From Bradyrhizobium sp. CB3481 (GTDB lineage Bacteria > Pseudomonadota > Alphaproteobacteria > Rhizobiales > Xanthobacteraceae): a stretch of 64,000 bases of DNA. Shown piece after piece: positions 18,286 to 42,815 of the stretch; position 1 is the first letter of the stretch; each line of letters opens with the position of its first letter. The stretch covers positions 6,344,501-6,408,500 of the forward strand of contig NZ_CP121647.1 of NCBI RefSeq assembly GCF_029714305.1. The letters are read 5' to 3'. The position numbers were made by a program, and so were the translations under genes. The notes under the pieces were generated by a model. That model did no database searches and was not told the origin of the DNA. It saw only the letters and a program-made list of their open reading frames with translations.

Positions 18286-18320
18286 GCGCTTTACTCCACT
18301 CTCGTCCCAGCTCTCCTTCA

Positions 18321-18475
18321 CCTCTCCCCGCTTGCGGGGAGAGGTCGGATCGCCACGAGCGATGCGAAGCATCGTCCGGTGCGATCCGGGTGAGGGGGTA
18401 CCGCACTCACGGCAATCTCGCCCGTTGAGAGAGCCCCTCACCCCTGCCCTCTCCCCGCGAAGGGCGGGGAGAGGG
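18321..18475. repeat. Inverted intergenic repeat (CCTCTCCCCGC family)
   Basis: It begins with a perfect hairpin CCTCTCCCCGCTTGCGGGGA and ends with CTCTCCCCGCGAAGGGCGGG. It is related to the element at 8771-8880 and separates two same-strand flavoenzyme genes. Confidence 0.75.
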
Positions 18476-18504
18476 AGAGATCGAGCCAGAGGGTGCCATC
18501 CGGC

Positions 18505-20853
18505 CTATTCGGCTGCAAGCGGCTTTGTCGCCTCGGCTTTCAGCTCAGCGCGGGTCTTCGGCTTACCCTTAATTTTGAGGTCTTCAAAATCCTGCCGATC
18601 GCGCACGCTGTTGCGGAAGATCTGCTCCTTACCGGGCAGATATTGCGGCGGACAGGCGATATCGGCGCCGTACCAGGCGGCGGCGCGCATCGTGAAGGAC
18701 GGATCGACCAGATGCGGCCGTGCCAGGGCGACGAGATCGGCGCGGCCGGCGGCCAGGATGGTGTTGACCTGATCTGCGGTAGTGATGTTCCCGACGCACA
18801 TGGTGGCGACCCGGGCCTCGTTGCGGACCTGGTCGGAGAACGGCGTCTGGAACATGCGGCCATAGATCGGCTGTGCGTCGCGCACGGTCTGGCCGGTGGA
18901 GACGTCGACCAGATCGACGCCGGCTTCGGCAAAGGCGCGCGCGATCGCCACCGCATCGTCGCCGGTGACGCCGCCGACGGCCCAGTCGGTCGCGGAGATG
19001 CGCACCGACATCGGCTTATGCGCCGGCCACGCCGCGCGCATTGCGGCGAATACTTCGAGCGGATAGCGCAGCCGGTTCTCGAGCGTACCGCCATATTCGT
19101 CGGTGCGCGTATTCGTCAGCGGCGAGATGAAGCTCGCCAGCAGATAGCCATGGGCGCAGTGCAGTTCCAGCATGTCGAAGCCGCAGGCCTCGCCGCGCAA
19201 GGCCGCCGCCACGAACTCCGCCTTGACCCTGTCCATCGCAGCACGGTCCATCTCGCGCGGCACCTGGCTGTCCGGGAAATAAGGCAACGGCGACGCCGAG
19301 ATCGTGTCCCAACCGCCCTGCGCCAGCGGCCGGTCCATGCCCTCCCACATCAGCTTGGTCGCGCCCTTGCGCCCGGCGTGGCCAAGCTGCAGGCAGATTT
19401 TGGCGGCCGAATTGGCGTGGACGAAATCAACGATGCGGGTCCAGGCCGCCTGCTGCTCGTCGTTCCACAAGCCAGTACAGCCCGGCGTGATGCGGGCATC
19501 GCGGCCGACGCAGGTCATCTCGGTGAAGAGCAGGCCGGCGCCGCCGATCGCGCGGGAGCCGTAATGCACCAGGTGGAAATCGGTCGGCACGCCTTCCTTC
19601 GCCGAATACATGCACATCGGCGAGACGACTGCGCGATTCTTGATCTCCATCTCGCGCAGCTTCAGCGGCTGGAACATTGGTGCCACTGGCTTGTCGACAT
19701 CGACGTCGAACCCTTTGGCGCGCACCTGCTTCGCAAAGGTCTGGTCGACCTCGCGGACGAACTCCGGCGCGCGCAGCATCAGATTCTCGTAGGTGATGGC
19801 CTTGGCACGGGTCATGACGCCGAACGCAAATTGTACTGGATCGAAATCCCAGAAGCGGTCGACATGCTCAAACCAGACCAGCGACACGTCGGCGGCGTGC
19901 TGGGTCTTCTCGACCTCCTCGCGCCGGCCGTGCTCGTAGGTCTGCAAGGCGGCATCGACCGAAGGCGCCGCGGCCATCGCGTCCGCGAGAGCAATCGCGT
20001 CTTCCATCGCGAGCTTGGTGCCGGATCCGATCGAGAAATGCGCGGTCGCCTTGGCGTCGCCGAGCAGCACCATGTTATCCTTGATCCAGCGCTGGCTGCG
20101 GATCATCGGGAAATTGCGCCACATCGAGCGGTTGATCAGCAGCGGATGGCCGTCGAGGAACCAGCCGAAGATTTCGGCCATGCGGTCGGCGGATTGCTGT
20201 TCGTCCAGCCCTTCGAGTCCGGCGCGCTGGAACGTCTCGGCATCGGTCTCAAAGATCCAGGTCGAGCGACCCGCCTCATACTGATAGGCATGCGCGATGA
20301 ACGGGCCCCACTCGGTCTCCTGGAAGATGAAGGTGAAGGCGTCGAGCGGTTTGGTCGAGCCCATCCAGGCGAACTTGTTGGAGCGCAGGTCGATCTGCGG
20401 CTGGAAATGGTCGATGTATTTGTCGCGGAAGCGGCTGTTGATGCCGTCGGCCAGCACGATGAGGTCGGCATCGGCAAAACGTTCTTCGTCGTCGATATCG
20501 GTTTCGAACTTTAGCGTGACGCCGAGTTCGCTGGCGCGCTCCTGCAGGATCAGGAGTAGCGTGCGGCGCGAGCAGCCGCAAAAACCGTTGCCGCCGACGC
20601 GATGCACCGTGCCGCGGAAATGCACGGCGATGTCGTCCCAATAGGCGAATTCCTGCGTGATACGGCGATAGCTCGGCGGATCGTATTTCTCGAAATTGTC
20701 GAGGGTCGCGTCGGAGAACACCACGCCGAAGCCGAACGTGTCGTCGGCGCGGTTGCGCTCATAGACGGTGATCTCGGCCTGCGGCCGCTGCTTCTTCAAG
20801 AGGATCGCGGCGTAGAGACCGGCCGGTCCGCCGCCGATAATCGCGATCTTCAT
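18505..20853 (-). CDS. Bifunctional 2-aminobenzoyl-CoA monooxygenase/reductase (salicylyl-CoA 5-hydroxylase-like)
   Basis: A 782-residue fusion. Residues 1 to about 380 are a group A FAD monooxygenase ([51 protein letters not shown]). Residues from about 395 on are an Old Yellow Enzyme-type FMN reductase ([57 protein letters not shown]). This architecture is that of 2-aminobenzoyl-CoA monooxygenase/reductase described in Azoarcus evansii, which hydroxylates and then reduces the ring to 2-amino-5-oxocyclohex-1-enecarbonyl-CoA; a salicylyl-CoA hydroxylase label is the alternative. The nearby aminobenzoate-CoA ligase supports the first. Palindrome site E is in its promoter region. Confidence 0.9.
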
Positions 20854-29331: not shown

Positions 29332-30015
29332 CTATTCCCCAAACGCGACATCCGCGATCACGGGAAGATGGTCCGAATAGGCGCACGCCTTGCGATCGGT
29401 CCAGGCCGAGCGGATGGTGAGATCGCGCGAGGCATAGACGCGGTCGAGCCGCATCATCGGCAATCGCGACGGAAACGTCCGTAGCCGCGTGCGCACCGGG
29501 CAAATCCGCGCCAGCACGCCGCGCACCGATTTCACCCAGAACCAGTCGTTGAAATCGCCGAGCACCAGCGTTCGCGTCGGTTGCACCAGTTCGGCCAAGG
29601 CATGCGCCTGGGCGTGCCGCTCATGGATGCTCAGGCCAAGATGGGTGGCGATCACGGTGACCTCGCCCTGGTCCGCCAGGATGCGCGCGGCGATCGCCCG
29701 GCGCGGCTCGCGCTCCTGATAGGAGACATCGGAAATGTGCGGCGGCGCGGCGAACGGCCAGCGGCTGAGCAGCACCTGGCCGTAGTCGCCATCCTCGGTG
29801 ACGATCGTCCGCGCATCGACGCTATGGCCGGCGATGGCTTTGGCCAGGAGGGCGAAGGGGTCGTCAGTCCTGCCGCGCGAATCGACCTCCTGCAGCGCCG
29901 CGATATCGGGAGACCAGCGGCGAATGATCGAGCACACGCCCTCCACGTCGAACTTCGGATTGAGGTGGAAGATGCCGTGCACGTTCCACGTCATGATGCG
30001 CAACGTGTTCGTCAC
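29332..30015 (-). CDS. Endonuclease/exonuclease/phosphatase-fold hydrolase
   Basis: A 227-residue EEP-superfamily protein. The metal/catalytic motifs are LRIMTWNVHGIFH at the N-terminus, DIAALQEVDSRG with the metal Glu, ATHLGLS, LGDFNDWF with the catalytic Asp-Asn pair, and the C-terminal YSDHLPVIADV with Asp-His. The GTG start overlaps the stop of the phospholipase D-VTT gene (GTGA), so the two are translationally coupled. This pairing recurs in membrane-lipid modifying loci and suggests a phosphodiesterase acting on a phospholipid or related phosphoester rather than on DNA; that is inference. Confidence 0.85.
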   Translation of the reverse strand: MTNTLRIMTWNVHGIFHLNPKFDVEGVCSIIRRWSPDIAALQEVDSRGRTDDPFALLAKAIAGHSVDARTIVTEDGDYGQVLLSRWPFAAPPHISDVSYQEREPRRAIAARILADQGEVTVIATHLGLSIHERHAQAHALAELVQPTRTLVLGDFNDWFWVKSVRGVLARICPVRTRLRTFPSRLPMMRLDRVYASRDLTIRSAWTDRKACAYSDHLPVIADVAFGE

Positions 30016-32132
30016 GTGCGTCGTCCCGCCCACCAGGTGACCAGGAACTGCACGCCGAGGCACAGCGCGATCCAGGCGAGGATCGCCAGCGCGAGCAGCA
30101 ATGCGTTGCTCCACGAGGCGTTTCGCGCGAGATCGGCGATCTGCGCGCCGAGCGCCGCCATCACTGCAATGCCCGGCGCCATGCCGAGCACCGTGCCGAG
30201 CATGAAATCGCGCAGGCTCAATTTGCTGGCGCCCGCCACCACGTTCACGATCGAGAACGGGGCAATCGGCACCATCCGGATCATGGCAACCGCAACGACG
30301 CCCTTGCCGATGATGCGGCTCTGCACCCGGCCCGCCCGCCGCCCGAGCAGCCGCTGCAGCCGCGCCTGGCCGAGCGCGCGGCCGATTGCAAACAACGTAA
30401 GCGCGCTAAGCAGCACGCCGGCGCCGGCGCTGAAGAACCCCATCCAGGGCCCCAGCGCCGCCGCCGTCGCGGCAATCAGCACCAGCACCGGAAACACGAC
30501 CAGCCCGCCGAGGACAAAGGCGGCGACCGCAAACAGCGGCGCGAACTGCGTGCGCGCGGGCTGAGAAATGACCGAGGAGACGAAGCCGATATCGGTGAAG
30601 TCATGCAGCGACGTATACTGCCAGGCCAGCGCAAGGCCGCCGAGCGCCGCGGCCAAACCGCCTACCGCCAAAATCGTCCTTGGCGTCCACATCCGCGTGG
30701 CGGCGCGGTCGAGATGCAGCGGCTCACGGGGATCGGCGACCGGCTGCACCATGGCCGCCATGCCGCCCGCAGTCGCGGCCGGATCGATCGGCCGTAGCGC
30801 TTTCGCCGCCTCGCCCTCCGCCCGGGGGTCGAGATATCCGAACAGATCGGCCTCGTTGCTTTCGATCTCCCGTTCACCGACGCCGCAGAAATGCCCGATC
30901 AGCTGCCGCCGAAGCCGCGCGATAAATTTCTGCTGCGTCTCGGACGTTGCCTCGAAGGCGAGATCGCATTCGGTGTCCGCGCCCATCGAGCGGTTGTTGA
31001 GGTTGGCCGAGCCGACGCGGAGAATACGGTCGTCGACGATCATCACCTTGCTGTGCACCATGACAGCAGCATCCGCCTCGTCATCCCGCACCGCCGGATA
31101 GAGAAAGCGGACCCGGTCCATGACGCCGGCGGCCACGAACTGGCCAATGAATCCGCCGCGGCCGCTCTGCATCGCCTGCGATTCGAACCAGGACGAATGC
31201 AGTTTTGGCGTCACGATCAGGACGCGAAGCTGCGGCACCTCAACCATCCGCCGTGCCAGCAGGCGCGCGATGTCGGTGGCGCTGGTGAACTGGTTCTCGA
31301 TATAGATGAAACGGTCGGCCGCGTTGATCGAAGCCTCGAACAGCAGCGCGACCTCGTTTACGCCGGGCGTGCTGGCGGTTGCAATCTCGGTACGAGCGAT
31401 CCCGGCCGTCATGCCGCGGCACTGCACCGGCACCGAGGCCGGCCAGCGCTCGTCTGTCACCGCCGCCGATGTCTCGACCGTGCAGCCCGCCGCTCGCCAC
31501 CGGCTCTCCGCAATTTGCGTTATGCTGGCTGCTGCGTCGCCATCCACCATGCACTGCACGTCGTGAAACGGCGGATAGGGCTTGCCGTCGGGATCGATCC
31601 GCAGCGGATCATGAACCTCGTGCGCGCTGGTGTCCCAGCGCCGGATCGTGAGGTCGAGCCCGCCAACGAAGGCGAGCGCGCCGTCGATGACGACGATCTT
31701 CTGGTGCTGCGCGGAGCCGAGCGGCAGGCTGGAATCGAAGCAGAAGCGAAGCCGCTCCGATGCGCCCGCGGTGAATTTGGTGGCGGAATTCCATTCGCGC
31801 TCGGCGGCATAGAGCGCTGGGAAATTCCAGATCAGGATATTGATCCGCAGCTCTGGTTTGGCCAGCAGCAGCGCCTTGAGAAAGGCGCCGAGCTCTTCCG
31901 GGTAGCCGTCCTCGCCCTGCCCTGAGGGCCCGACGAACCGCGTCTGGCTGTGGATGTCCCAGCCGATGATGTAGACCTGCCGCCTGGCAAGCAGCAGGGC
32001 TTCGCGCAGAGCGGCGAAATAAGCGGCTGCGTCGTTGAGGATTGCCAGCCGCCCTGCCTTGCACCTTCTCCAGACGGTTTTACCCGGAATGAGGATGGAT
32101 GAGCTTTGCAGCAGGCGACACCTCGGCAACAC
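30012..32132 (-). CDS. Phospholipase D-like protein fused to a VTT/DedA-type membrane domain
   Basis: About 706 residues. The N-terminal two-thirds carry two HKD motifs: HQKIVVIDGALAFVGG and HSKVMIVDDRILRVGSANLN, as in cardiolipin synthases and phospholipases D. The last 230 residues are membrane segments with a VTT (SNARE-associated/DedA) core, PVLVLIAATAAALGPWMGFF and MIRMVPIAPFSIVNVVAGAS. It probably makes or remodels phospholipid at the inner membrane. The start is uncertain: the frame is open further upstream and lacks an ATG near the natural domain start (PGKTVWRRCKAGR); I used the GTG at 32132. The EEP gene is coupled downstream. Confidence 0.85.
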   Translation of the reverse strand: MLPRCRLLQSSSILIPGKTVWRRCKAGRLAILNDAAAYFAALREALLLARRQVYIIGWDIHSQTRFVGPSGQGEDGYPEELGAFLKALLLAKPELRINILIWNFPALYAAEREWNSATKFTAGASERLRFCFDSSLPLGSAQHQKIVVIDGALAFVGGLDLTIRRWDTSAHEVHDPLRIDPDGKPYPPFHDVQCMVDGDAAASITQIAESRWRAAGCTVETSAAVTDERWPASVPVQCRGMTAGIARTEIATASTPGVNEVALLFEASINAADRFIYIENQFTSATDIARLLARRMVEVPQLRVLIVTPKLHSSWFESQAMQSGRGGFIGQFVAAGVMDRVRFLYPAVRDDEADAAVMVHSKVMIVDDRILRVGSANLNNRSMGADTECDLAFEATSETQQKFIARLRRQLIGHFCGVGEREIESNEADLFGYLDPRAEGEAAKALRPIDPAATAGGMAAMVQPVADPREPLHLDRAATRMWTPRTILAVGGLAAALGGLALAWQYTSLHDFTDIGFVSSVISQPARTQFAPLFAVAAFVLGGLVVFPVLVLIAATAAALGPWMGFFSAGAGVLLSALTLFAIGRALGQARLQRLLGRRAGRVQSRIIGKGVVAVAMIRMVPIAPFSIVNVVAGASKLSLRDFMLGTVLGMAPGIAVMAALGAQIADLARNASWSNALLLALAILAWIALCLGVQFLVTWWAGRRT

Positions 32133-32310
32133 GAAGAAGCAGATAGCGGGCACAGAGTGCCTCGCCCGAGGAGCAACGTTCCGCCAGCAGGTTTGGTTCC
32201 ACCTTCCCGGAACCGAGCGGCTCAGGTGGGAACTGGAGGTGTCGGACCGCCGCTGTGCGGCACAAAACCTAAGAACCGGAGCGTCATGGGTTGGTGCGAG
32301 CGGATTCGCG

Positions 32311-32562
32311 TCATTCCTCGTCAATGGTTTCGATGTAAGTGCTGTGCAGCGACGTCGCCGATTTGAATCCGTCAAACATGATGCGGAACGTGCTGCGGTA
32401 GTGGCCGATGCCGATGATGACCCCTTCCCGCCCGGCCAGGTTTGGGCACCGTATCGCGCCGAGCGCGCTCATTCTGATCCGGATACGTCCCGGCAGCGCA
32501 GGCTGGTCCGGCAACTCATTTTCCGATCTGCTGCCCGGCCCCAAGGTTTTTTCGGGATTCAT
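32311..32562 (-). CDS. Small protein with an SH3/KOW-like segment, unknown function (83 aa)
   Basis: The protein starts MNPEKTLGPGSRSENELPDQ and has a GxxRCPNLAGREGVIIGIGH segment followed by FRIMFDGFKSATSLHSTYIE, which looks like a small beta-barrel of the KOW or SH3 kind. GGAGG lies nine bases upstream of the ATG at 32562, supporting translation. It sits at the downstream end of the secretion locus, 60 bases after the acetyltransferase-TPR gene, and may belong to that operon. No function can be assigned. Confidence 0.65.
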   Translation of the reverse strand: MNPEKTLGPGSRSENELPDQPALPGRIRIRMSALGAIRCPNLAGREGVIIGIGHYRSTFRIMFDGFKSATSLHSTYIETIDEE

Positions 32563-32622
32563 CGAGCGTGCCCTCCTTTCCTCGGCACGCGCCACCCACG
32601 CGGGATCACTCCGACAGCGAGT

Positions 32623-34185
32623 CTATGCCGAAATCACCTGTTCGCGGGCAGCTTGCCGGTCCGGCATGCTCCGCCAATCGCGCCACTTCCTCACCGACGC
32701 TCCGTTTGCAGGTTCGACGGCGGCCAGGAGCGCGGCATTGACTTCCGCCATCCGCCCCAGCTTCACCATGCATCGGGCCGCCGCGACAAACGCATCGGGC
32801 GAATCCGGCTGGAGCCGCATGACCTCCAGATGGTGGCGCAGCGCCTCTTCATGCTGATCGAGGCGTTCGCAGATCTGGCCGAGGCACTGCCACGCTTTGG
32901 GTGCGTCGGGGCGCACCGTCGTCAAGGTGCGGAACGCCCGCTTGGCACCGGCCAGATCAGGTTTCGCCGCCAGCAACTGGCCGAGCCGGTGCAGCGCATC
33001 GGCGTGCTTCGGCTGAACCTCCAGAATTCGCCGGTAGCCGACTTCCGCATCGCCAACCCTTCCCTTGCGGTGAAGTTCGGTCGCCTGCGCGAGCAGATCG
33101 GAGATGCAGCGGGGGTCGATCCGGCCGCCGAGATTTCTGCCGGTCCGGGTCTCAAGAAGGATGGAGTATATCCTCCGCTCGTTGCAGCCGAACGAATATT
33201 TGTATGGTTCGTCGCCGCGTAGGAAATCGTATTCGACAAACCCCCGCCCGATGGCGTCACGAATGCTGTAGGCATGCAGCAGCACGCCGGCCGGCGGCCC
33301 CTCGAACGTTTCGTCGCGCCCGGTCATGTAGAACGAGAATGTCCGCTTGCGCGGCTCCATCAGCGTGGCCAGCGCCGCGACCGCCCGGTCGCCATGCCAG
33401 AAGGTCGGCAGATACACCAGACCGGCTTGGAAGCTGCGTGTCAGCATGCTGCGGTTGGATCGGACCAGGCTGTCGGTCCGATCTCCCTTGCGCGGACGCC
33501 ACTTGGTCTCCCAAAACCCGAGCAAGGTCTCGAGATCCCGCTCGAACGTCTCGGGCGTAGCAACAGTCATGTGGTACTCGCTCGACGCTTCGACCTGCTT
33601 CAGCAGACGTCGAGTTTTCTGCCGCGTATTCGCGCTGAGCTGGTCCAGATAGCCATTCCAGTCCTTTGGAAGCGTGACATAGGGGCAGCGACTGTTATCG
33701 ATGTTGTCGATCTTGATAACCTTATTGACGGTCGTCGAATGGAATCCTGCCTTCGGAAAGCAGGCCGTCAGCAGCCGCCAGCGCCGCTCAGACGTCCTGA
33801 TATTATCGAGATGGAATCGCGCCCAATTCATCTGTTTAATGGCGCGGGCAAAGGCCGGAATAGCCCTGTTGTCCGCCTCCGGCCGGCAGACGATGCCGGT
33901 ATAATCGGCGGCAAAACTTCCCGCCATCCGGAGATTGCCGAGGACTTCGGACTTCTCGAACGTGGTTTGCAGCCGCAGCGGAAAGAAAGCGACGTAAGGC
34001 AGCTCGGCAGCGTCGCGCTCTTTCGCCGCCAGGATAAACCAGGGTCCCGGGATGCTGGACAGCCAGCCGCTCAGCCATTTCCATGACAGGAATATCTGGG
34101 CGTCGTCATCCGCATCGTAGACGGCGTTCCAGTCATCCTCGAGCCTGGCGAGCTGCGGCAAGTTTTCGATGATGTCGATATGCAC
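32623..34185 (-). CDS. Acetyltransferase (CelD/FemX-like GNAT) fused to TPR repeats
   Basis: About 520 residues. Residues 10-360 match the GNAT-type CelD/BioF2 acetyltransferase family (FLSWKWLSGWLSSIP; NTRQKTRRLLKQVE; AALATLMEPRKRTFSFYMTG; FVEYDFLRGDEPYKYSFG). From about 385 to 490 there are three to four TPR units (AEVGYRRILEVQPKHADALH; AKRAFRTLTTVRPDAPKAWQ; ALRHHLEVMRLQPDSPDAFV). The GTG at 34185 has GGAAAGG eight bases upstream; GTG 34194 overlaps it. It is next to the HlyD-type adaptor, so it may modify the secreted proteins or a surface glycan. The fusion itself is unusual. Confidence 0.82.
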   Translation of the reverse strand: MHIDIIENLPQLARLEDDWNAVYDADDDAQIFLSWKWLSGWLSSIPGPWFILAAKERDAAELPYVAFFPLRLQTTFEKSEVLGNLRMAGSFAADYTGIVCRPEADNRAIPAFARAIKQMNWARFHLDNIRTSERRWRLLTACFPKAGFHSTTVNKVIKIDNIDNSRCPYVTLPKDWNGYLDQLSANTRQKTRRLLKQVEASSEYHMTVATPETFERDLETLLGFWETKWRPRKGDRTDSLVRSNRSMLTRSFQAGLVYLPTFWHGDRAVAALATLMEPRKRTFSFYMTGRDETFEGPPAGVLLHAYSIRDAIGRGFVEYDFLRGDEPYKYSFGCNERRIYSILLETRTGRNLGGRIDPRCISDLLAQATELHRKGRVGDAEVGYRRILEVQPKHADALHRLGQLLAAKPDLAGAKRAFRTLTTVRPDAPKAWQCLGQICERLDQHEEALRHHLEVMRLQPDSPDAFVAAARCMVKLGRMAEVNAALLAAVEPANGASVRKWRDWRSMPDRQAAREQVISA

Positions 34186-34224
34186 GTCGGTCACCTTTCC
34201 AAGTCTGCGGGTTGACGGATCGGC

Positions 34225-35589
34225 CTAACGCTCCCTGAATGCGCGCATCATGCTGTCGTGGATCGGCCTGACGAGGTATTGCAGGAATGTCCGTTCCGCC
34301 GTCTTGATATAGACTTCGGCCGGCATACCCGGCGTCGGACTGAAGTCGGGAATGTTCCTGCTCTCCTCGCTGTTGAGCTTGACGCGCACGATATAGATGT
34401 CAGTAGGCCCGACCTGCTGCGACTTCTTCTCATCTGCAAGCGTGTCTGCGGACAAATAGATGACATCACCGGACAACATCGGCGTGATGCGCTGGTTCAG
34501 CGCCGTGAGCCGCACCATCGCCGTCTGACCGTGCTTGACATTGTCGATATCCTGCGGCCGCAACCTTGCCTCGATGATGAGCTCGTCCTTCAGCGGCAGC
34601 AGCTCCATGATGTTCTTGCCCGCCTCAACCACGCCGCCCTTCGTATGGTAGCGAAGCTTCACCACCACGCCGCTCACCGGCGCCGCGACGCGGACCCGGT
34701 CGAGCACGCCCTTTGCGCTCAGCATCCGCTCTCGTACGTCGGCCAGCTCGCCGCGGACCTCGTGCATCTGCTCCACGGCGGTCTTGATAGCGGTCTTGCG
34801 CACACCATTGATCTGCTCCACCGCTCGGGCGATGCGTTCCTTGGCATCGCCGATGTCGCCGAGGATGCGGCCGACCTCGCCTTCCAGATTGGCCTTCTGC
34901 CGCTGCAGCACCATCAGTTCCGGCTTGCGCACCAGTCCCTGCTGCACGAGCTTGTCCTTGGTTACGATCTCCTCATCGAGCAAGACGATCTGGCGCCGGA
35001 CCGCGTCGAGTTGCACGTGCGATCCCCGGATTCGCTCATCGAGGGCGTTGATGCTCTCCTGGATGCTCTTGATGTCGCTGTTTAGATTGTTGCGGCGCGC
35101 AGCGAACGTCATTTGCTGGCTTTCGACGATTTCCCTCACCTCGGGCGAGCTGTCCATCCATTTGACGACTTCGGCCGGCAACGTGACATCGGACTCCTCC
35201 TTCGTCTCGGCCTGCAGCCTGGCGTCGATTGAGGTCAGGCGAATGCGCCGCAGGAACAGCCGCTGCAACTCCGCACGCGCCGCGGTATCGTCAAGCTCGA
35301 GCAATATCTGCCCGGCTTCCACCTTATCGCCTTCGCGCACGTAGATCTCGCGGATCATTCCGCCTTCGAGATGCTGGATGATCTTGTTCTGTCCGGTCAC
35401 CACAAACACGCCGGAGGCGACCACGGCGCCGGCGATCGGCGCCATGTTGCCCCAGACGCCGAATCCCATCAGCACGACGGCCATAATCAGCGCGCCGGCG
35501 ACGGTCGGCAGCCTGGTCGAGCGCGGCAGCGATTCGTACCACGTGCCTTCTGCTTCGGCGGGGCGGGCTGCAATTTTCCTCTTGGCCAT
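34225..35589 (-). CDS. Type I secretion periplasmic adaptor (HlyD/PrsE family)
   Basis: A 454-residue membrane fusion protein. One transmembrane helix at about residues 28-50 follows a cytoplasmic N-terminus. A lipoyl half-motif ([20 protein letters not shown]) precedes a long coiled coil of roughly 200 residues, then the second lipoyl half ([20 protein letters not shown]) and a C-terminal beta domain ([20 protein letters not shown]). This is the standard HlyD/PrtE layout. It bridges the ABC exporter in the inner membrane to a TolC-like outer-membrane channel, which is not encoded here. It follows the ABC gene by 32 bases. Confidence 0.93.
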
Positions 35590-35621
35590 CGCTTGACCTC
35601 GTTGCTTTCACATGGCCGCCC

Positions 35622-37832
35622 CTAGTTCAAGGAAGGCGGGGCGCCCCCTGGGCCGGGCGAGATGTTGTTCGGCTTGCGCCCGGTGATCATCGGAAGGATC
35701 TCGTCGCGGGTGCCGAACGCCTGCACCGAGCCCTGATGCATGATCATGATCTTGTCTACGCTCACCAGCAGCGCTGCGCGCTGGGTGATCGTCACCACCG
35801 TGATCTGTTTCTCCTTGGCGCGCAGCAGTGCCTTGGCGAGCGCCCGTTCGCCATTGGCGTCGAGATTGGAGTTCGGCTCGTCCAGCACGATCAAGCGCGG
35901 GTTGCCGAAGAAGGCCCGCGCTAACCCGATCCGCTGTCGCTGGCCTCCCGATAGCGGGCTGCCGTCCATTCCAACGATCGTTTCATAGCCCTGGGCAAAG
36001 CTGGAGATCATCTCGTGCACGTCGGCAGCCTCGGCGGCGTCGAATACATCCTCGTCGCGGGCGTCGTCGCGCATGCGGCCGATATTGGCTTTGATGCTGG
36101 CTGGGAACAGTTGCACGTCCTGCGGCAGATAGCCGACGCTCTCGCCGAACTGGCGTGGATCCCAGTTGCGCAGATCCATCATGTCAAGCCTCACGCTGCC
36201 TGCCGTCGGGATGATGGATCCCACCAGCATCCGCGCCAGCATGGTCTTGCCGGTGCCGGAGTCTCCGACAATCGCAAGCGATTCGCCGGGCTGCAGTTGA
36301 AAGCTGATGCCGTTCAGGATCACTTTCTTGTTCGGCGGCGGCACATAGAGAATACGCTCGACGTTGAGATAGCCGGCAGGACGCGGCAGGCGGAGCCGCT
36401 CCAGGTTGAGCGGTGAATTCAAGAGCAGCCCCTTGACGCGGAGATAGGCCGAACGCGCCTGCACGAAGTTGCGCCAACCCTCGATCGTGCCTTCCAGCGG
36501 CGCTAACGCGCGGCTGGCGACAATCGAGGCCGCGATCACCATGCCGCTGGTCATTTGGCTCTCCAGCGCCAACCATGCGCCCCAGCCCAAAATGGCGATC
36601 TGGGTGCACAGCCGCAGGAACTTGGACAACCCCGTCATCAGGATGTTGCGATCGTGTCCGATCACCTGCGCCTTCAAGGACTCCACGGTCTCGCGGCCCC
36701 ATACCTGGACGCCTTCCGGGATCATGCCCATCGCGTTGATGACCTGGGCATTGCGGGCCATGGATTCCGCCGTGAGATTCGCCCTGGCTCCATAACTGTT
36801 GGCTTGGTTGAACGGCACCGCGGTGACCCGCTGGTTAGCCAACGCCACGAGGACGAGCGCGACGCCGGAGCCCAATACGATGAGCCCGAGATGAGGATGG
36901 ATCAGGAAGACCACCGCGAAGTAGACCGGCGCCACCGGCGTATCGAACATCGTCAATAGTACCGGGCCGGTGATGAAGGCACGCAAGTGCTGAAGGTCGG
37001 CCAGGGTCTGGAATTCGCGGCTGGAGCCGCTCTGCGCTGCCTTCGCGGCAGCACTCAGGACGGGTCCACCCAACCGTGCCTCGGTTTCGACCGCAACCCG
37101 CATCAGGATCAGACGGCGCATCATGTCCATCAGCACATGTGCTCCGATCGCGATGATCACAATGATGGTCAGCATCACCAGCGTGTCCGTGCTGCGGCTG
37201 GTCAGCACGCGGTCGGACATGTTGAAAAGATAAATCGGGATGGCGAGCACCAGCAGATTGACCGCAACCGAGAAGATGCCCACGGTCACCAGATTGCGGC
37301 GGGCATTCGCGAGACCGCCGCCAAGCACGTCTCTGAATTCCTTGTCGCTGAAACGCCGATGCAGTGGCGGCTTGCCACCACCGCCACCTCCCCCGCCGCT
37401 GCCACCCGAGGATCCGCCACCGTCTTTGTCACCATTGCTGCGAAGCGGAGGAGCCGGCGTCGCCTGCTCGATCACGACAGTCGATCCCGGAGGCGTCTTG
37501 GCCTCTGTCTTGGCTTCTGTCTTGGCTTCTGTCTTGGCTTCGACTTTGGCTTCGACTTTGGCTTCTGGCGCCGGCGCCGGCTTGGTCTCGGACTGACCTT
37601 GTTTCCGCGTCGACGGATCGGCCGATGCCGGGCCGATGTTCCGGGGTGCGGCTTTTGCTTCGGCAAAACCGACATTCGCCCCGGCTAGTCTTCCCGGCAG
37701 ATCTTCCGTGCGAGAATGTGTCGGATCGAACCACGGACGAAGCGGAATTATCTTGGCCGAACTCGCCGTTGCTTCGTCAAGCTGAGTCAGGCGCCAGCTC
37801 CCGGCGCCTGCCCGATCATCCCAGCCCCACAT
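35622..37832 (-). CDS. Type I secretion ABC exporter (PrtD/HlyB-type) with a low-complexity N-terminus
   Basis: A 736-residue half-transporter. Residues 1-155 are soluble and low complexity, with tandem EAKVEAKTEAK units and a Gly-rich linker. Then comes a six-helix permease domain (about 175-470) and an ATPase with Walker A GDSGTGKT, signature LSGGQRQ and Walker B RLIVLDEPNSNLD. PrtD-type exporters lack a peptidase domain, and none is seen here. The long repeat-bearing N-terminal extension is unusual for the family. The ATG at 37832 has GGAG nine bases upstream. It lies between the adaptor and the two repeat-rich genes, which are therefore its likely substrates. Confidence 0.93.
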   Translation of the reverse strand: MWGWDDRAGAGSWRLTQLDEATASSAKIIPLRPWFDPTHSRTEDLPGRLAGANVGFAEAKAAPRNIGPASADPSTRKQGQSETKPAPAPEAKVEAKVEAKTEAKTEAKTEAKTPPGSTVVIEQATPAPPLRSNGDKDGGGSSGGSGGGGGGGGKPPLHRRFSDKEFRDVLGGGLANARRNLVTVGIFSVAVNLLVLAIPIYLFNMSDRVLTSRSTDTLVMLTIIVIIAIGAHVLMDMMRRLILMRVAVETEARLGGPVLSAAAKAAQSGSSREFQTLADLQHLRAFITGPVLLTMFDTPVAPVYFAVVFLIHPHLGLIVLGSGVALVLVALANQRVTAVPFNQANSYGARANLTAESMARNAQVINAMGMIPEGVQVWGRETVESLKAQVIGHDRNILMTGLSKFLRLCTQIAILGWGAWLALESQMTSGMVIAASIVASRALAPLEGTIEGWRNFVQARSAYLRVKGLLLNSPLNLERLRLPRPAGYLNVERILYVPPPNKKVILNGISFQLQPGESLAIVGDSGTGKTMLARMLVGSIIPTAGSVRLDMMDLRNWDPRQFGESVGYLPQDVQLFPASIKANIGRMRDDARDEDVFDAAEAADVHEMISSFAQGYETIVGMDGSPLSGGQRQRIGLARAFFGNPRLIVLDEPNSNLDANGERALAKALLRAKEKQITVVTITQRAALLVSVDKIMIMHQGSVQAFGTRDEILPMITGRKPNNISPGPGGAPPSLN

Positions 37833-37879
37833 GTGAATACTCTCCTGCACCTGCAATCAAAAAACAAAAATCCCGTCCG

Positions 37880-39814
37880 CTAATGCAACATGGCCGCCAT
37901 CGGGTCCGCCTGAGCCGCACTGGTAATCGCTGCCGGAGGTGGGGCCGCCGTCTCCTGCGGATGGTCGTCAACGAAGGCAACAAGTTCGGTCACCAGCGTG
38001 TTGGTGTCGCCCTTGAGCGCTTGATCGGCCTCCCCCGGCATCAGGTCGGCCTGGACCAGAATGGAATCAGTGTAGATCTGCCCCGCGACGTAGGTGGCAT
38101 CGGGATTGACGTCGACGATCGCAGCATCGTTGGTGAGCTGGTTGCCGCCTGATGTGACCGATTGCGTCACGACGCCATCGGGATCAAGCGCCATCAGATC
38201 CTGCGCCGGCTGGTTTTGCAGTTGATACATCACATTGACGTCGGACGTGACGTTGGTCTGCCAGACCGCATTAATGTCGTAATAGTCTCCCGTGATGTAG
38301 AGCACCTTGAGGACGCCGCCATTGCCGACCAGGGCGCTGCCCAGCGCGGGATCGATCGACGTCATGCCGGAGGCCAGCAGGCTCTCGATCAGCGCGAGGT
38401 TCGGCGGCAGCGTATCAAAGGTGTCGCCGCCGAAATTTTCAATGGCCGCCTCGTTCAACAGGCTGTTGGAGCCTGAACTCACCGATTGAGACGGATCGGA
38501 GCCGTCGGCCGCCATTACGATCTTGTCGTCGTTCAACAGGATGTTGTTCTGAAAGATCACGTTCATCCCGTGATAGGCGCCCTTGATGATGATCAGGTCG
38601 TATTGAATGCTGCCATCGAGAACCAGCGACAGGTTACCTTGCTCATTATGGCCGCCGACAAGATTGTAGTGGGTGCTGCTGCTGACCTGCGTTGCGACGT
38701 CGTTGTCGGAGAGGTAATTGACCTGAGCCACCGCATGAACGCTGTAGTAGTCGCCGTCCACCACATCGATGCTCCAGTGCGGGCCGGCCACCGTCGCCGC
38801 GAAGCCGGTGTAGATGCTGGGATCCCGGACGAAGTCGGCAATGTTGGTCGCGACATCCTCTCCGCTGCTCACCGATGGCGAGCCGTGCCCGCCCGATACG
38901 CTGATCTGGTCATGGTCGACGATCGTATTGGTCTGGAAGATGGCATTGGTCTTGAAGTAATCGCCCATCACCACCATGGTGCGGACACCTTCGCCAACAT
39001 CGATAATCAGCGCTGCGTTGACGCTGAAGTTGCTGCCCAGCGTTGCCCACTGGCCGATTCCGTCCCCGGTGTCGGGCAGCGTCGGCGGCTCGGCCGGCGG
39101 CGTCGGCTCGGTCGGGCGATCCTGCAACTCGCCATCGACGTAATAGCCGACCGGCACCGAATGCTGATCCGGCGTGCCGCCGCCGTCGGCCCATGCTGCG
39201 TCGTGGGCGGACAGAAAATCCTTCGCGCCGGCATCGTTCTGCGGCATCTGCCAGTTGGCGGGAATCTCCGCATTGGCATTGGCCGCCAGTTGCTCAATGG
39301 TGGCCATCGCGCTGCTGTTGACCTGCATGATCAGGGGTTCTGCGACGGCAAGCGCGTCCGTCGGCAGATTGGTGTCGTCGTCATGCATGAAGTTGTACTG
39401 GTGGACCGTAAGCTGGGTCTGCTGGCCGCCGTCCTGGTACGTCACCCTGACATGATGGTCGGCATGCCCGCCTCCACCGCCGCCGGCCGGCAACGGCAGC
39501 GGAACGTTCAGTTTCGGCAGGGGTGGAAAGAAGTCGGGATCGTGATCCTGTACATCATGGAGCAATTTGAGCGGACGGCCTCGAACCAGGTGTATCGGAT
39601 CGTCCGTGAGCGGTTCCGGAATCGGACCCGCCGCAGTATCCATATCGTCGGGCACGAAGCGATGATCGTAATTCGGTCGCAGCGTCGTGTAGTCGTCCGA
39701 AGAACGGGCCACGAGACCGTCGTCATATTGGACGCGGTCGCGGGCGATGTCCTGGAAGATCTGCAGATATCCTGCGAAGTGGGAAATAATCTCGGTAATG
39801 CTTGCTGACGCCAT
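37880..39814 (-). CDS. Repeat-containing probable type I secreted protein (644 aa)
   Basis: A 644-residue acidic, Asp/Asn-rich protein without a Sec signal. It has four clear copies of a GDYYxxNAxxQxNxxxDxD unit (about residues 284-301, 354-371, 412-429, 509-525: GDYFKTNAIFQTN, GDYYSVHAVAQVN, GAYHGMNVIFQNN, GDYYDINAVWQTN) and interleaved SVSSGxNxxxNxAxI units near 314, 444 and 552. I see no GGxGxDxUx RTX nonapeptides. Its position next to the exporter and the lack of an N-terminal signal suggest C-terminal-signal secretion by that exporter. Function is unknown: an adhesin or extracellular polymer is possible. Confidence 0.8.
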   Translation of the reverse strand: MASASITEIISHFAGYLQIFQDIARDRVQYDDGLVARSSDDYTTLRPNYDHRFVPDDMDTAAGPIPEPLTDDPIHLVRGRPLKLLHDVQDHDPDFFPPLPKLNVPLPLPAGGGGGGHADHHVRVTYQDGGQQTQLTVHQYNFMHDDDTNLPTDALAVAEPLIMQVNSSAMATIEQLAANANAEIPANWQMPQNDAGAKDFLSAHDAAWADGGGTPDQHSVPVGYYVDGELQDRPTEPTPPAEPPTLPDTGDGIGQWATLGSNFSVNAALIIDVGEGVRTMVVMGDYFKTNAIFQTNTIVDHDQISVSGGHGSPSVSSGEDVATNIADFVRDPSIYTGFAATVAGPHWSIDVVDGDYYSVHAVAQVNYLSDNDVATQVSSSTHYNLVGGHNEQGNLSLVLDGSIQYDLIIIKGAYHGMNVIFQNNILLNDDKIVMAADGSDPSQSVSSGSNSLLNEAAIENFGGDTFDTLPPNLALIESLLASGMTSIDPALGSALVGNGGVLKVLYITGDYYDINAVWQTNVTSDVNVMYQLQNQPAQDLMALDPDGVVTQSVTSGGNQLTNDAAIVDVNPDATYVAGQIYTDSILVQADLMPGEADQALKGDTNTLVTELVAFVDDHPQETAAPPPAAITSAAQADPMAAMLH

Positions 39815-39908
39815 TGGAATCCTTCCCCTGTTGCCGTGAACGGTCAGGGTCGCGGACAGCTTGTTGTCGGCAACTGCGGCGACTGAAATAAAATCATTGA
39901 GAAGAAAT

Positions 39909-39936
39909 GACCCGCGCGGCAGAAGCCGCGCGGGTC
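39909..39936 (-). terminator. Intergenic hairpin after the 275-aa repeat gene (terminator or attenuator)
   Basis: GACCCGCGCGGC and GCCGCGCGGGTC form a perfect 12-bp stem with the loop AGAA. On the minus strand it follows the 275-aa gene stop by 10 bases and is trailed by the T-rich ATTTCTTCTC. Partial read-through here would make the repeat protein much more abundant than the downstream exporter. Confidence 0.7.
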
Positions 39937-39946
39937 GAACGCGGAA

Positions 39947-40774
39947 CTAGAGCGTATCGTGGCTATCGGTCAGGTCGTGACCGGCAACCTGCATGGTGAT
40001 GCTGTTGAACTGGATGTTCGCACCCTGGGTGATGTTCTGGTCGAAAGCAGACTGGTTGAGGACTGCATCGGCACTGGAATGAATGCCGGCGCTTGCGCCT
40101 GCCGCATCGCCCATATGCGCGCCGTCGATCTTGGACTCGCCGCCTTCGATCTTGGCATCCATGTCGAACCCGGAGCCCGGATAACACGAGCCGCCGCCGT
40201 TATAGACGGCATAGGAGCTGTTGGTGTCGTTATCGACCAGGTTGTTGACCTGATCGATGTTGAACTGGTTGCCGCCACCGTACAGCGTCTGGTTCACCAC
40301 GTCGGGCATCACGACGGAATCGGACGTGGTGAAATGCGTGAGGTCGATGACCGGGCTGCTCAGGCCGTCGGCCTTCACGTCGAGATCGACCTTCACATCG
40401 ACATCGACGTTGACCTTGTTGTCGACGGTATTCTCGACCTTGTTGTCGATCTTGTTGTCGATATCGTTGTCGACCTTGTTGTCGAGCTTGTTGTCGACGT
40501 CGTTGTCGACCTTGTTGTCGAGCTTATTGTCTACGTCGTTCGAATTCTTGTTCTCGTTCTTATTCTCGTTCTTGTTGTCGTTGTCGTTGTCGTTCTCGCT
40601 CTTCGAATCCAACGACTGAACGGCGAACTGCAGTTGGCCCTGACCTTGGCCCTGACCCTGTCCTTGGCCCTGAAGCTGAGCCTGGAGATTGGCCTGCGCC
40701 TGTAACTGGTCTTGCTTCTGGTCCTGATCCTGGTCCTGATCCTTGGGATCCCACTTGGGCTTTGGCTTACTCAT
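39947..40774 (-). CDS. Q-rich and DNK-repeat probable secreted protein (275 aa)
   Basis: A 275-residue protein of extreme composition. Residues 12-50 are Gln/Asp/Gly rich (QDQDQDQKQDQ, GQGQGQGQGQGQ). Residues 60-80 are Asn/Asp/Lys/Glu rich. Residues 82-117 are three 12-residue copies of DNKLDNKVDNDV, trailing into VDVDVKVDLDV. The last 130 residues are less repetitive, with YGGGNQFNIDQVNN and TQGANIQFNSITMQVAG motifs that echo the NxxxN pattern of the neighbouring 644-aa protein. There is no signal peptide. The ATG at 40774 has AGGAG upstream. It is a likely substrate of the adjacent type I exporter. Confidence 0.8.
   Translation of the reverse strand: MSKPKPKWDPKDQDQDQDQKQDQLQAQANLQAQLQGQGQGQGQGQGQLQFAVQSLDSKSENDNDNDNKNENKNENKNSNDVDNKLDNKVDNDVDNKLDNKVDNDIDNKIDNKVENTVDNKVNVDVDVKVDLDVKADGLSSPVIDLTHFTTSDSVVMPDVVNQTLYGGGNQFNIDQVNNLVDNDTNSSYAVYNGGGSCYPGSGFDMDAKIEGGESKIDGAHMGDAAGASAGIHSSADAVLNQSAFDQNITQGANIQFNSITMQVAGHDLTDSHDTL
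40424..40531 (-). repeat. Coding tandem repeat, 3 units of 36 bases
   Basis: Three consecutive 36-base units encode DNKLDNKVDNDV, DNKLDNKVDNDI and DNKIDNKVENTV within the 275-aa gene. Units 1 and 2 are nearly identical in DNA, which suggests recent duplication by slippage or recombination. Confidence 0.85.
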
Positions 40775-41041
40775 GACATGCTCCTGCGCTTGGAGCATCG
40801 CGGGCGGAACGAGATCGCTGATCTTCTAAGTCTGCGGTCTTCGATACGCGGCGGTGCTCGTTGACGTCGGTTCTTCCGACTGCCGGCACCTCGCGTTATT
40901 GCAGATGCCGGCTCTGACAATTTGCCGACACATCTCCGCCAACAACATCCACGCATTGGATGGATCGCCGTATCTTGCGATATCAACCATCCGGAGAATC
41001 AGAAGCTGCGCGAGTCGAGGTCGTTCGAGACCGTCTGTCGT

Positions 41042-41629
41042 TCAGGCCGCGTCGCGCGGCACGCTCGGCTGCTCTCCGCCGCAGACATGCGCTTCAAGGC
41101 GCGGCAATAGATCCCAGATCTCGCGATTGATCTTCGTCATTTCGCGGGTCGTCTGCAGCATTTCCTGCAGCCGGTTTTCGTCGAGCGCCTTTATGTCACC
41201 GAACTTCAGGCTCGACCTTGTTTCCATCAACCGCATCGACTGGGTGTGGGTGATGGCGCCCTTCGAATCGAAGATGAACATGCAATGATTCAATTCATTG
41301 CGAACCCGGGTGGATTCCGAAAAGCGCTCGATGAGCGCCGCCAGACTCCGGGCAAGCGCCTTGTCGGTTATCTTGATCTTCGCCAACCGCTGGATCAGGT
41401 CGAGCCTCGCCCTGGTCGTGTTCAGCGTAGCGAATACGACAGCGGCCGCAGCTTCATCTGTCCGCAACAGAATCATAAGGACGTAGATGAAGAGACTTTC
41501 GTTGTTCGACCAGCTGCAGATCAGGTTGCCGATCAGGGCGAGAACGAAAGTGCGGCGATCTGCGGAAGCCGGCGCAGCTGCAGCGAGCAGGTCGAAATCC
41601 GGCTTTGGAGGCAACTTGCTGACAAACAT
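41042..41629 (-). CDS. Hypothetical helical protein (195 aa)
   Basis: About 195 residues starting MFVSKLPPKPDFDLL; mostly helical and without a cleavable signal. A hydrophobic segment around residues 26-60 (FVLALIGNLICSWSNNESLF, IYVLMILL) is not long enough to be a clear membrane helix pair. The middle has ARLDLIQRLAKIKITDKAL and RNELNHCMFIFDSKGAI. The ATG at 41629 is preferred over 41650 because GGGAC lies eight bases upstream. It is the most upstream minus-strand gene of the secretion locus and lies next to the divergent LuxR-type regulator, but its family and role are not recognised. Confidence 0.7.
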   Translation of the reverse strand: MFVSKLPPKPDFDLLAAAAPASADRRTFVLALIGNLICSWSNNESLFIYVLMILLRTDEAAAAVVFATLNTTRARLDLIQRLAKIKITDKALARSLAALIERFSESTRVRNELNHCMFIFDSKGAITHTQSMRLMETRSSLKFGDIKALDENRLQEMLQTTREMTKINREIWDLLPRLEAHVCGGEQPSVPRDAA

Positions 41630-41851
41630 CGCATCTGTCCCGATATGCATCCCATGAGGGACATCATCGTAATCCGCATCACAGCCGCAGATGTACGTAT
41701 CGAAAGATATAGGAGCAACGGTTGCGTGACGCCGCTATTCCAATCGGGGGATGTCAAAATGTGGCTGAAAGACGATGCTTTGACGACATCTCGTCACACG
41801 GCGCCTTCTTGGCATCTACTACTATCGAGTGTAAACTTTTTCTGAACAATT

Positions 41852-41863
41852 ATGATGCATCAT
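41852..41863. promoter_or_regulatory. Palindrome upstream of the LuxR-type gene
   Basis: ATGATGCATCAT is a perfect 12-bp palindrome in an AT-rich stretch, and ATGAACTAATTCAT (41862-41875) is a second weaker inverted repeat beside it. They lie 60-85 bases before the regulator start, in the 307-base divergent region of the secretion locus. Nothing else was seen in that region. Confidence 0.35.
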
Positions 41864-41936
41864 GAACTAATTCATATCAACCAGCGCGGTCCAGAAGGAA
41901 ACTATCGATAGCATCGCCAAAAATCGGGGGCGCGTT

Positions 41937-42815
41937 ATGTCAGTCCCACCACAAAAGACCGTTTTTATTGTAGATTCGATGGCATTTCGACGAGCTCGAA
42001 CCGAGAGCTTCTTGAGTTCCTGGGCCAGCAACGAACAGGTCGAGTTGGTTTCGCTCGATCCCGGCGAAGCGCATGCCAGGCTGGTCGATCGCAGCCGGTG
42101 CGATATGCTGATCTATAGCTCCGGGGCGGCCTCTCACCTCGAGCTGTTCGCCGAGATGCAGCTATTCCACACGCTGCGACGGGAAGCCGCGCTAGTCATC
42201 CTCTCCGACGATGAAAATCCTGCGATGGTCATCGCAGCGATCCGTTCGGGAGCCCAAGGCTACTTCAGCAATTCGATGCCCCCCGACCTGGCGTTACAGG
42301 CACTTTCTTTCGTGCTGCACGGCGGCACCTATTTTCCACCTGCCGCGATCATGGCCGGCCGGCCGCTCGGCGGCAGGCCGTCGATCGAGTCCGGATCATC
42401 CGATTTCATTCAGGAGTCGACATCCCCGGAACTTGAGCCGCAAGATCAACCATCAAGGACAGGGCCGGAAGGGGTCGTTTACGAACCGCAAGGTTCCCTT
42501 TTCGACGGAAAGGCCCCTTCTATCCACCACGGCGATCACTCCGATGGCCTTCGACCCGCTCCCGAGTTCACCGAGCGGCAGTACGCCGTTCTCGTCTGCC
42601 TGTGCGAGGGCGATCCCAACAAGGTCATCGGCCGCAAGCTCGGAATGACGGAAACGACGGTGAAGGTCCACGTCCGGGAGATCATGCGCAAGCTGGGCGT
42701 ATCCAACCGCACACAAGTCGCCATTGCCGCCCGCCGCGGCGCTGTCGGCACCGAGGGCATCGCACTCGTTCCCTCCGACGCGCCGATCCTCATCAAGTCA
42801 TCTCTCCCTCAATAG
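41937..42815 (+). CDS. LuxR/NarL-type regulator with a degenerate receiver domain
   Basis: A 292-residue protein. Residues 8-130 have a receiver-like fold (TVFIVDSMAFRRARTESFL; ALVILSDDENPAMVIAAIRSGAQGYF), but the position of the phosphoacceptor Asp reads CDMLIYSSG and the conserved Lys is replaced (YFSNSMP). After a linker of about 75 residues comes a GerE helix-turn-helix (FTERQYAVLVCLCEGDPNKV; TETTVKVHVREIMRKLGVSN). It may therefore be controlled without phosphorylation. It is divergent from the 195-aa gene and the secretion operon, so it is the likely regulator of that locus. Confidence 0.87.
   Translation: MSVPPQKTVFIVDSMAFRRARTESFLSSWASNEQVELVSLDPGEAHARLVDRSRCDMLIYSSGAASHLELFAEMQLFHTLRREAALVILSDDENPAMVIAAIRSGAQGYFSNSMPPDLALQALSFVLHGGTYFPPAAIMAGRPLGGRPSIESGSSDFIQESTSPELEPQDQPSRTGPEGVVYEPQGSLFDGKAPSIHHGDHSDGLRPAPEFTERQYAVLVCLCEGDPNKVIGRKLGMTETTVKVHVREIMRKLGVSNRTQVAIAARRGAVGTEGIALVPSDAPILIKSSLPQ

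Follow-up and report, generated by a model that had tools for sequence, protein, structure and literature searches.

The question raised by this stretch of Bradyrhizobium sp. CB3481 (NZ_CP121647.1, positions 6,344,501 to 6,408,500; the whole 64,000 nucleotides are referred to here as the window) is whether seven neighbouring genes within it form a dedicated secretion system for a surface or structural polymer, as was proposed in a preliminary description. Type I secretion is usually described by way of RTX toxins, proteases and giant adhesins, and the order to which the host belongs includes nodulating, nitrifying and plant-associated bacteria. The seven genes were all found, contiguous, at positions 32623–42815 using the list of open reading frames (ORFs) together with Pfam and NCBIfam scans (Table 1). 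Four were named by the family scans, namely a GNAT-TPR fusion, an HlyD-type adaptor, a PrtD-type ABC exporter and a LuxR-type regulator. The others encode two candidate substrates, S644 and S283, and a protein designated U202. Judged by sequence, the locus resembles a type I secretion system whose two linked substrates are not of the RTX type, and it lies outside the RTX and curli families. The comparisons below support a dedicated type I secretion locus whose core is conserved across an order, and the earlier observation was right, with an extent larger than had been stated. Two features are new in this analysis: the lysine content of S283 tracks the presence of GNAT-TPR, and a covarying GC-rich hairpin follows S283.

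Conservation of gene order was examined in 19 loci of Bradyrhizobium, Afipia and Nitrobacter (L032–L050), obtained in one scan of genome contigs. The order U202-S283-S644-ABC-HlyD is preserved in 17 of them, i.e. in all that reach the exporter, the contigs of L041 and L050 ending before it. GNAT-TPR follows HlyD in these loci except in L035, where it is absent, with L048 keeping a remnant of 157 aa. The genes for S644, ABC and HlyD were present in the same order in all 30 wider loci annotated. The S644 family was detected in 30 of 265 genomes of the genus with a single-sequence query, and with a profile (A1) in 39 of 391 genomes of the family and 35 of 397 of the order, a few of these family and order counts resting on pieces only (e.g. 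G842, G1035, G1186, G1207). At class level two genomes matched in each of two samples (2/385 and 2/220), the identical two both times, one of them being the window's own. Matches were also found in 31 plasmid records, among them Ensifer, Sinorhizobium, Paracoccus, Sulfitobacter, Shinella and Rhodobacter, with a query coverage of 53–57% in the 20 rows listed. Four plasmids were fetched, and both annotated ones (Shinella, Rhodobacter) carry hypothetical proteins, a type I ABC protein and HlyD in unchanged order. Among the 120 listed of 291 matches to S644, most relatives bearing a name are called "hypothetical" and a few UniRef entries "Type I secretion protein".

The membership of the cluster was then scored in 85 loci chosen for holding S644, from Hyphomicrobiales and some Rhodobacterales. 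ABC and HlyD were each present in 83 loci, both misses being the cut contigs of L041 and L050. An S283-like C-terminus was also found in 83 (misses L119 and L173; in L119 an S283-like frame does appear under looser clustering) and U202 in 82 (misses L109, L125 and L173, each at a contig end). The small unknown gene of the preliminary description, i.e. U202, is thus among the most constant members, while two of the others it had included are not constant, the LuxR-type regulator being present in 60 loci and GNAT-TPR in 49. By these counts the cassette is no local oddity, its core being conserved across an order.

Table 1. Coordinates of the cassette features in the window.
Feature	Length	Position	Strand	Remarks
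GNAT (PF13480)-TPR fusion	523 aa	32623..34194	minus	PF13480 1.4e-19 plus TPR models; optional member
HlyD-type periplasmic adaptor	454 aa	34225..35589	minus	TIGR01843 6.7e-113, 377.8 bits (cut-off 208.65)
PrtD-type type I secretion ABC exporter	744 aa as listed	35622..37856	minus	TIGR01842 1e-207, 691.1 bits (cut-off 510.15)
S644, candidate substrate 1	644 aa	37880..39814	minus	about five alternating A/B repeat units
GC-rich hairpin	12-bp stem	39909..39936	minus	10 nt past the S283 stop codon, ahead of S644
S283, candidate substrate 2	283 aa (275 aa if second ATG used)	39947..40798	minus	
U202	202 aa (195 aa if second ATG used)	41042..41650	minus	RNELNH motif at residues 117–122; probably HEPN-like
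LuxR/NarL-type regulator		41937..42815	plus	divergent from the operon; GerE 7.5e-16; degenerate receiver

The exporter genes are of familiar type. The TIGR01842 match of the ABC protein spans residues 182–721 and is preceded by an N-terminal low-complexity extension of ~180 residues, and the Pfam matches of the protein include no C39 domain. Three TolC-family matches were found in the genome, two above the TIGR01844 cut-off, and none is linked to the cassette. The locus is thereby comparable to the PrtDEF and HlyBD-TolC systems, with a PrtD-type ABC protein and an HlyD-type adaptor above NCBIfam cut-offs, unlinked TolC-family genes, and acidic candidate substrates lacking a Sec signal encoded beside the exporter. 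It differs in that strict RTX repeats are absent from its substrates, which fall below every curated family cut-off, and in the constant HEPN-like partner and the hairpin between the substrate genes. No Pfam match was obtained for S644 or U202 at an E-value of 0.1, nor for S644 even at 10; S283 gave one unrelated sub-threshold Pfam match, and none of the three matched NCBIfam at 0.1. The strict RTX nonapeptide GGxGxDxUx occurs in neither S644 nor S283 and once in a longer S283 homologue (L122), and a simple Kyte-Doolittle scan detected no Sec-like hydrophobic N-terminus in either protein, in agreement with what had been described. The LuxR-type regulator passes for its GerE domain and has a receiver (PF00072) below cut-off (13.6 bits vs 30.2; E 0.076), so the label "degenerate" given to it earlier is fair. 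Its match to the CsgD model (6.8e-8, 32.4 bits, cut-off 250) covers only the common helix-turn-helix and carries little weight.

The repeats reported in S644 stand well above chance. The pattern G-x-[ND]-x3-N-x-[AS]-x-[IVLF] (A units) is present five times, with a mean of 0.020 and a maximum of 2 in 1000 composition-keeping shuffles, and [VIAL]-x-Q-x-N-x-[LIVMST]-x(1,2)-[DN]-x-D four times (mean 0.012, maximum 1 in as many shuffles). The A units lie at residues 260, 318, 388, 448 and 556 and the B units at 284, 354, 412, 509 and 578, with the GDYYxxNAxxQxN unit seen in invariant columns. The N-terminal helix is conserved, and so is the C-terminal end, which reads for example D-P-M-A-S-V-L-H; many distant members have D-x-[ML]-x-x-V-L-[AT] there instead. 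RTX proteins are reported to be enriched for [FLI][VAI] as their final two residues (PMC8861453); in S644 these are LH in the window and LA in some distant members. In S283, runs of Q and GQ are followed by DNK-type tetrads and then by conserved C-terminal B and C units, the module ending Q-x-I-x-x-G-A-N-x-Q-x-N. The C units number one in S283, four in L122, and eight and 11 in forms of 1571 and 1624 aa when counted by pattern (shuffles 0.000), and one, three, seven and five, respectively, when counted by profile. Three loci (L112, L115 and L118) carry a tandem pair of S283 genes. It should also be noted that genome G1298 holds two systems on separate contigs (L114, L120), one with a short S283-like protein and the other with one of 1571 aa, and that an annotated 1517-aa Rhodobacter protein (L129:8575–13128) looks like a frameshifted fusion of S283- and S644-like genes.

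A surface or structural polymer, as had been suggested, is plausible for such proteins: they are acidic and low in complexity, rich in Q, N and D, built of one to ~11 modules, and the core of S644 (~residues 200–592) is predicted to be mostly beta, most of its 10-residue blocks having a predicted local distance difference test score (pLDDT) of 70–90, some of 54–65, and the rest of the model scoring low. Should S283 and S644 indeed make up a matrix or fibre, these bacteria would have a new surface polymer that can be put to the test. The two proteins might instead be calcium-dependent adhesins, the unit Q-x-N-x(4)-DND/DDD acting as an analogue of the RTX loop whose Ca2+ binding outside the cell would promote folding and export. 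This is a real possibility, though less probable than not: the repeats end in Asp-rich stretches, the pI is ~4.1 (4.07 for S644) and S644 contains no cysteine, and type I substrates of the RTX class fold in the Ca2+-rich exterior (PMC9592583). The lack of the strict RTX motif in both proteins, and of any Pfam match for S644 at so permissive a threshold, speaks against it.

A role as functional-amyloid subunits resembling those of curli or Fap, with type I export in place of CsgG/FapF, was considered as well. Curli (CsgA/CsgB, CsgD) and Fap combine Asn/Gln/Gly repeat ladders, a LuxR-type regulator with a degenerate receiver, and major and minor subunits. The present locus is alike in its repeat ladders, its predicted beta-rich core, its degenerate-receiver LuxR-type regulator and the probable major/minor layout around the hairpin, and of the four top-ranking Foldseek hits for the S644 model, three were FapC or CsgA. 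All of these hits were non-significant, however, so that an amyloid fold is hinted at and no more, and the locus differs from both systems in having no Sec signal. Curlin_rpt (PF07012) matched neither S644 and S283, nor L120, L121 and L122, nor anything in the whole genome, the E. coli control being positive. An amyloid pathway of this kind is regarded as rather doubtful.

Evidence on modification came from the composition of S283. GNAT-TPR could be scored in 78 loci, and the mean lysine content of S283 was 5.10% in the 47 with it and 1.15% in the 31 without it. Using phylogenetic generalized least squares (PGLS) on the S644 tree, the association gave a slope of 2.57 (t 5.97, p 7.1e-8) at a fitted lambda of 0.96, and p 8.6e-7 at a lambda of 1. 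Lysine was the strongest of the 20 residues, the next being T (p 3.9e-3), with no coupling for S283 arginine in the same 78 loci (p 0.86) or for S644 lysine (p 0.54). The effect lies mostly ahead of the last 135 residues of S283 (7.92% vs 1.64%) and is weaker within them (2.13% vs 0.39%, p 0.0045). It holds among S283 proteins of 200–345 aa (62 loci, p 1.9e-6) and within the window's own family (47 loci, only five of them GNAT-negative, p 7.8e-5). The pattern suggests that GNAT-TPR acylates S283 lysines before export. The earlier proposal of substrate modification by the acetyltransferase thereby gains real comparative support, with S283 and not S644 as the target.

An alternative is that GNAT-TPR is a mere historical neighbour and the lysine coupling a product of lineage-specific repeat composition. 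In 36 of the 85 loci GNAT-TPR was not found, although five of these (L041, L050, L103, L109 and L125) adjoin contig ends; its independent switches on the tree are few (at least seven), the own-family test holds just the five negative loci, and there are two exceptions, L100 and L103. Against this the coupling survives the phylogenetic correction at both lambda values, the own-family test and the length-restricted test, is strongest for lysine and is absent from S644, and the alternative is judged unlikely. A precedent is provided by RtxC/HlyC, GNAT-fold enzymes which acylate lysines of type I substrates (PMC8339906). In both cases a gene for a GNAT-fold enzyme adjoins a type I system, and internal lysine acylation, proposed here, is the shared reaction. 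The enzyme of the present locus differs in being a PF13480 domain fused to TPRs, with no RtxC family match in the Pfam and NCBIfam scans; it would act on many lysines of repeat arrays instead of one or two, and its substrate is not known to be a toxin. The coupling sharply predicts that lysines of S283 are acylated in a GNAT-dependent way; if true, such acylation, described for toxins among the type I substrates, would reach structural proteins too.

The second new feature is the hairpin between S283 and S644, in which 11 of the pairs are G-C. A comparable stem was detected 8–14 nt past the S283 stop in all 49 rows near the window's lineage, corresponding to 39 of 39 distinct loci, since ten loci had been entered twice. 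Among distant S283-like 3' ends it was present at 33 of 36, at distances of up to 66 nt and with a sequence not always shared; L122 and L123 of this set are identical to L031 and L029 of the near one. Mononucleotide shuffles gave a stem as good in 0 or 1 of 300 cases, in the near and the distant set alike. In 30 chosen hairpins, 95.3% of cells were paired compared with 85.0% after shuffling (0 of 500 shuffles as high), with seven of the 12 pairs altered on both sides and the inner GCGG/CCGC core near-invariant. The exact core occurs at three places in the 8.04 Mb single-contig genome (G000), and a control pattern equally often, i.e. it is rare and not enriched. The hairpin may set the level of S283 above that of S644 and the exporter. 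As S644 lies beyond it, together with the exporter genes of the operon, S283 and S644 are probably unequal partners.

U202 was found to accompany the system closely. Its profile matched 34 of 257 genomes of the genus, 29 of which are S644-positive, and of the five without an S644 match only G107 has it at full length, the other four being fragments. It was found in 29 of the 30 S644 genomes of the genus, and the thirtieth, G044 (locus L033), also carries it; the co-occurrence gives a Fisher p of 1.6e-33 if G044 is taken to lie outside the sample and kinship is ignored. The RNxxxH motif defines HEPN domains, and a pattern search within the frames, with no alignment column imposed, found R-N-x(2,3)-H in 81 of 82 U202 frames, one of these having K for R. 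U202 is predicted to have a helical fold (pLDDT 83.7). Weak matches to the Csx1 models of PADLOC were obtained for all 63 related members (A5), with E-values from 8e-5 up to 0.5, these members being close relatives and hence not independent, and the Pfam model HEPN_Cthe2314 matched one of the 63 at 0.1. The U202 model had no significant match in the PDB. U202 is probably HEPN-like, sharing the motif and a weak profile match with the Csx1/Csm6 ribonucleases and differing in that no CARF domain was among its Pfam matches. In the window U202 and the LuxR-type regulator are divergent; in 10 of 54 loci (L096–L098, L108, L111, L113, L118, L126, L127 and L129), on stop-to-stop frames, U202 is encoded on the same strand as the LuxR gene and either overlaps or directly adjoins that gene, which suggests that the two are jointly regulated.

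Type I systems are often toxin exporters, and immunity proteins are typically not better conserved than their partners. That S283 and S644 act as effectors, whether antibacterial or host-directed, and U202 as their immunity or toxin-antitoxin-like partner is highly improbable: U202 does weakly match HEPN ribonuclease models, but within a given locus it is better conserved than either S644 or S283 (69, 51 and 60%, respectively, in L040), the family scans detected no enzymatic domain in either protein, and S283 varies in repeat number like a structural protein.

A second protein family, F6 (~160–235 aa; consensus DPYxxGFxxMLIT..IGEE), adjoins U202, usually divergently, and was clustered in 26 of 50 loci (e.g. 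L040:7333–8040 and L116:15071–15682). Its frames in at least L032, L046 and L110 look antisense to U202, and the members scanned had no Pfam or NCBIfam match above cut-off. A zinc-ribbon protein of the IS1595 type (PF12760 in L101) was seen in nine of 50 loci (L099–L103, L106, L107, L110 and L115), all nine having no LuxR match; it is possibly a domesticated transposase domain serving as a regulator.

Taken as a whole, the observations are best explained, with reasonable though far from full confidence, by a self-contained locus for the type I secretion of structural material destined for the cell surface or the exterior. In this model, the LuxR-type regulator and U202 would control the operon, and S283 would be made in excess, the hairpin limiting read-through or protecting the upstream mRNA so that less S644, ABC and HlyD is produced. 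Where present, GNAT-TPR would acylate lysines of the low-complexity repeats of S283 in the cytosol. Both substrates would then be exported in one step, lacking a Sec signal, through ABC, HlyD and an unlinked TolC-family protein, as deduced from family membership and gene order. Outside the cell the acidic Asn/Gln/Asp repeat modules may fold into beta-rich arrays and assemble, with S283 as the abundant main subunit and S644 as a scarcer, conserved partner for nucleating, capping or anchoring.

Several points weigh against this model. Export, modification and fibre formation are all inferred from sequence; the structure predicted for S644 is of low confidence (mean pLDDT 60) and gave no significant PDB match; and homology between S283 and S644 is unsupported (hhalign probability 0.9%, E 0.064). 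The presence or absence of GNAT-TPR was judged within the fetched stretch only, ~5–10 kb on each side, and S283 has 4.5% lysine in L100 and 4.9% in L103 with no GNAT-TPR nearby, L103 being excluded from the test since its contig stops next to S283. The hairpin is missing at three of the 36 distant ends (the first copy in L112 and both in L118), and the covariation set comprised 30 of 48 hairpins, the 18 left out including different or shifted sequences (L099, L104, L105, L108, L110, L111, L124, L126 and L129). The tail of the window's hairpin is just ATTTCTTCTC, which makes it a poor intrinsic terminator, and since the hairpin is palindromic its covariation cannot tell an RNA from a DNA site.

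A more specific pathway can be drawn from the same elements, namely an undescribed surface-fibre route with type I export, cytosolic TPR-guided GNAT acylation of repeat lysines in the major subunit, a beta-solenoid nucleator, and a HEPN-like U202 that reads the GCGCGG hairpin to set the substrate ratio. It is speculative and thought improbable. A single-case hint for U202 acting on the hairpin is the coincidence in L118, where both S283 copies lack the hairpin and U202 is the sole one of 82 with K for R; in L126, however, the hairpin is present and U202 has no recognisable motif, which speaks against such a role.

Among the neighbouring genes, a 94-aa ORF at 32311–32595, at the left edge of the stretch described earlier, was matched in seven of the 19 loci L032–L050, all Bradyrhizobium, and lies outside the conserved core. 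A phospholipase-D-like ORF with a membrane C-terminus, labelled by reading, adjoins the cassette at 30012–32375 and does likewise in five Bradyrhizobium loci (L032–L036). In five Afipia loci the cassette is followed by a protein of 845–857 aa (L040, at 17289–19862 with FecR and He_PIG domains, L042, L043, L044 and L049). Elsewhere in the window, a 15-base unit is repeated in tandem at 61045–61088 (2.9 copies).

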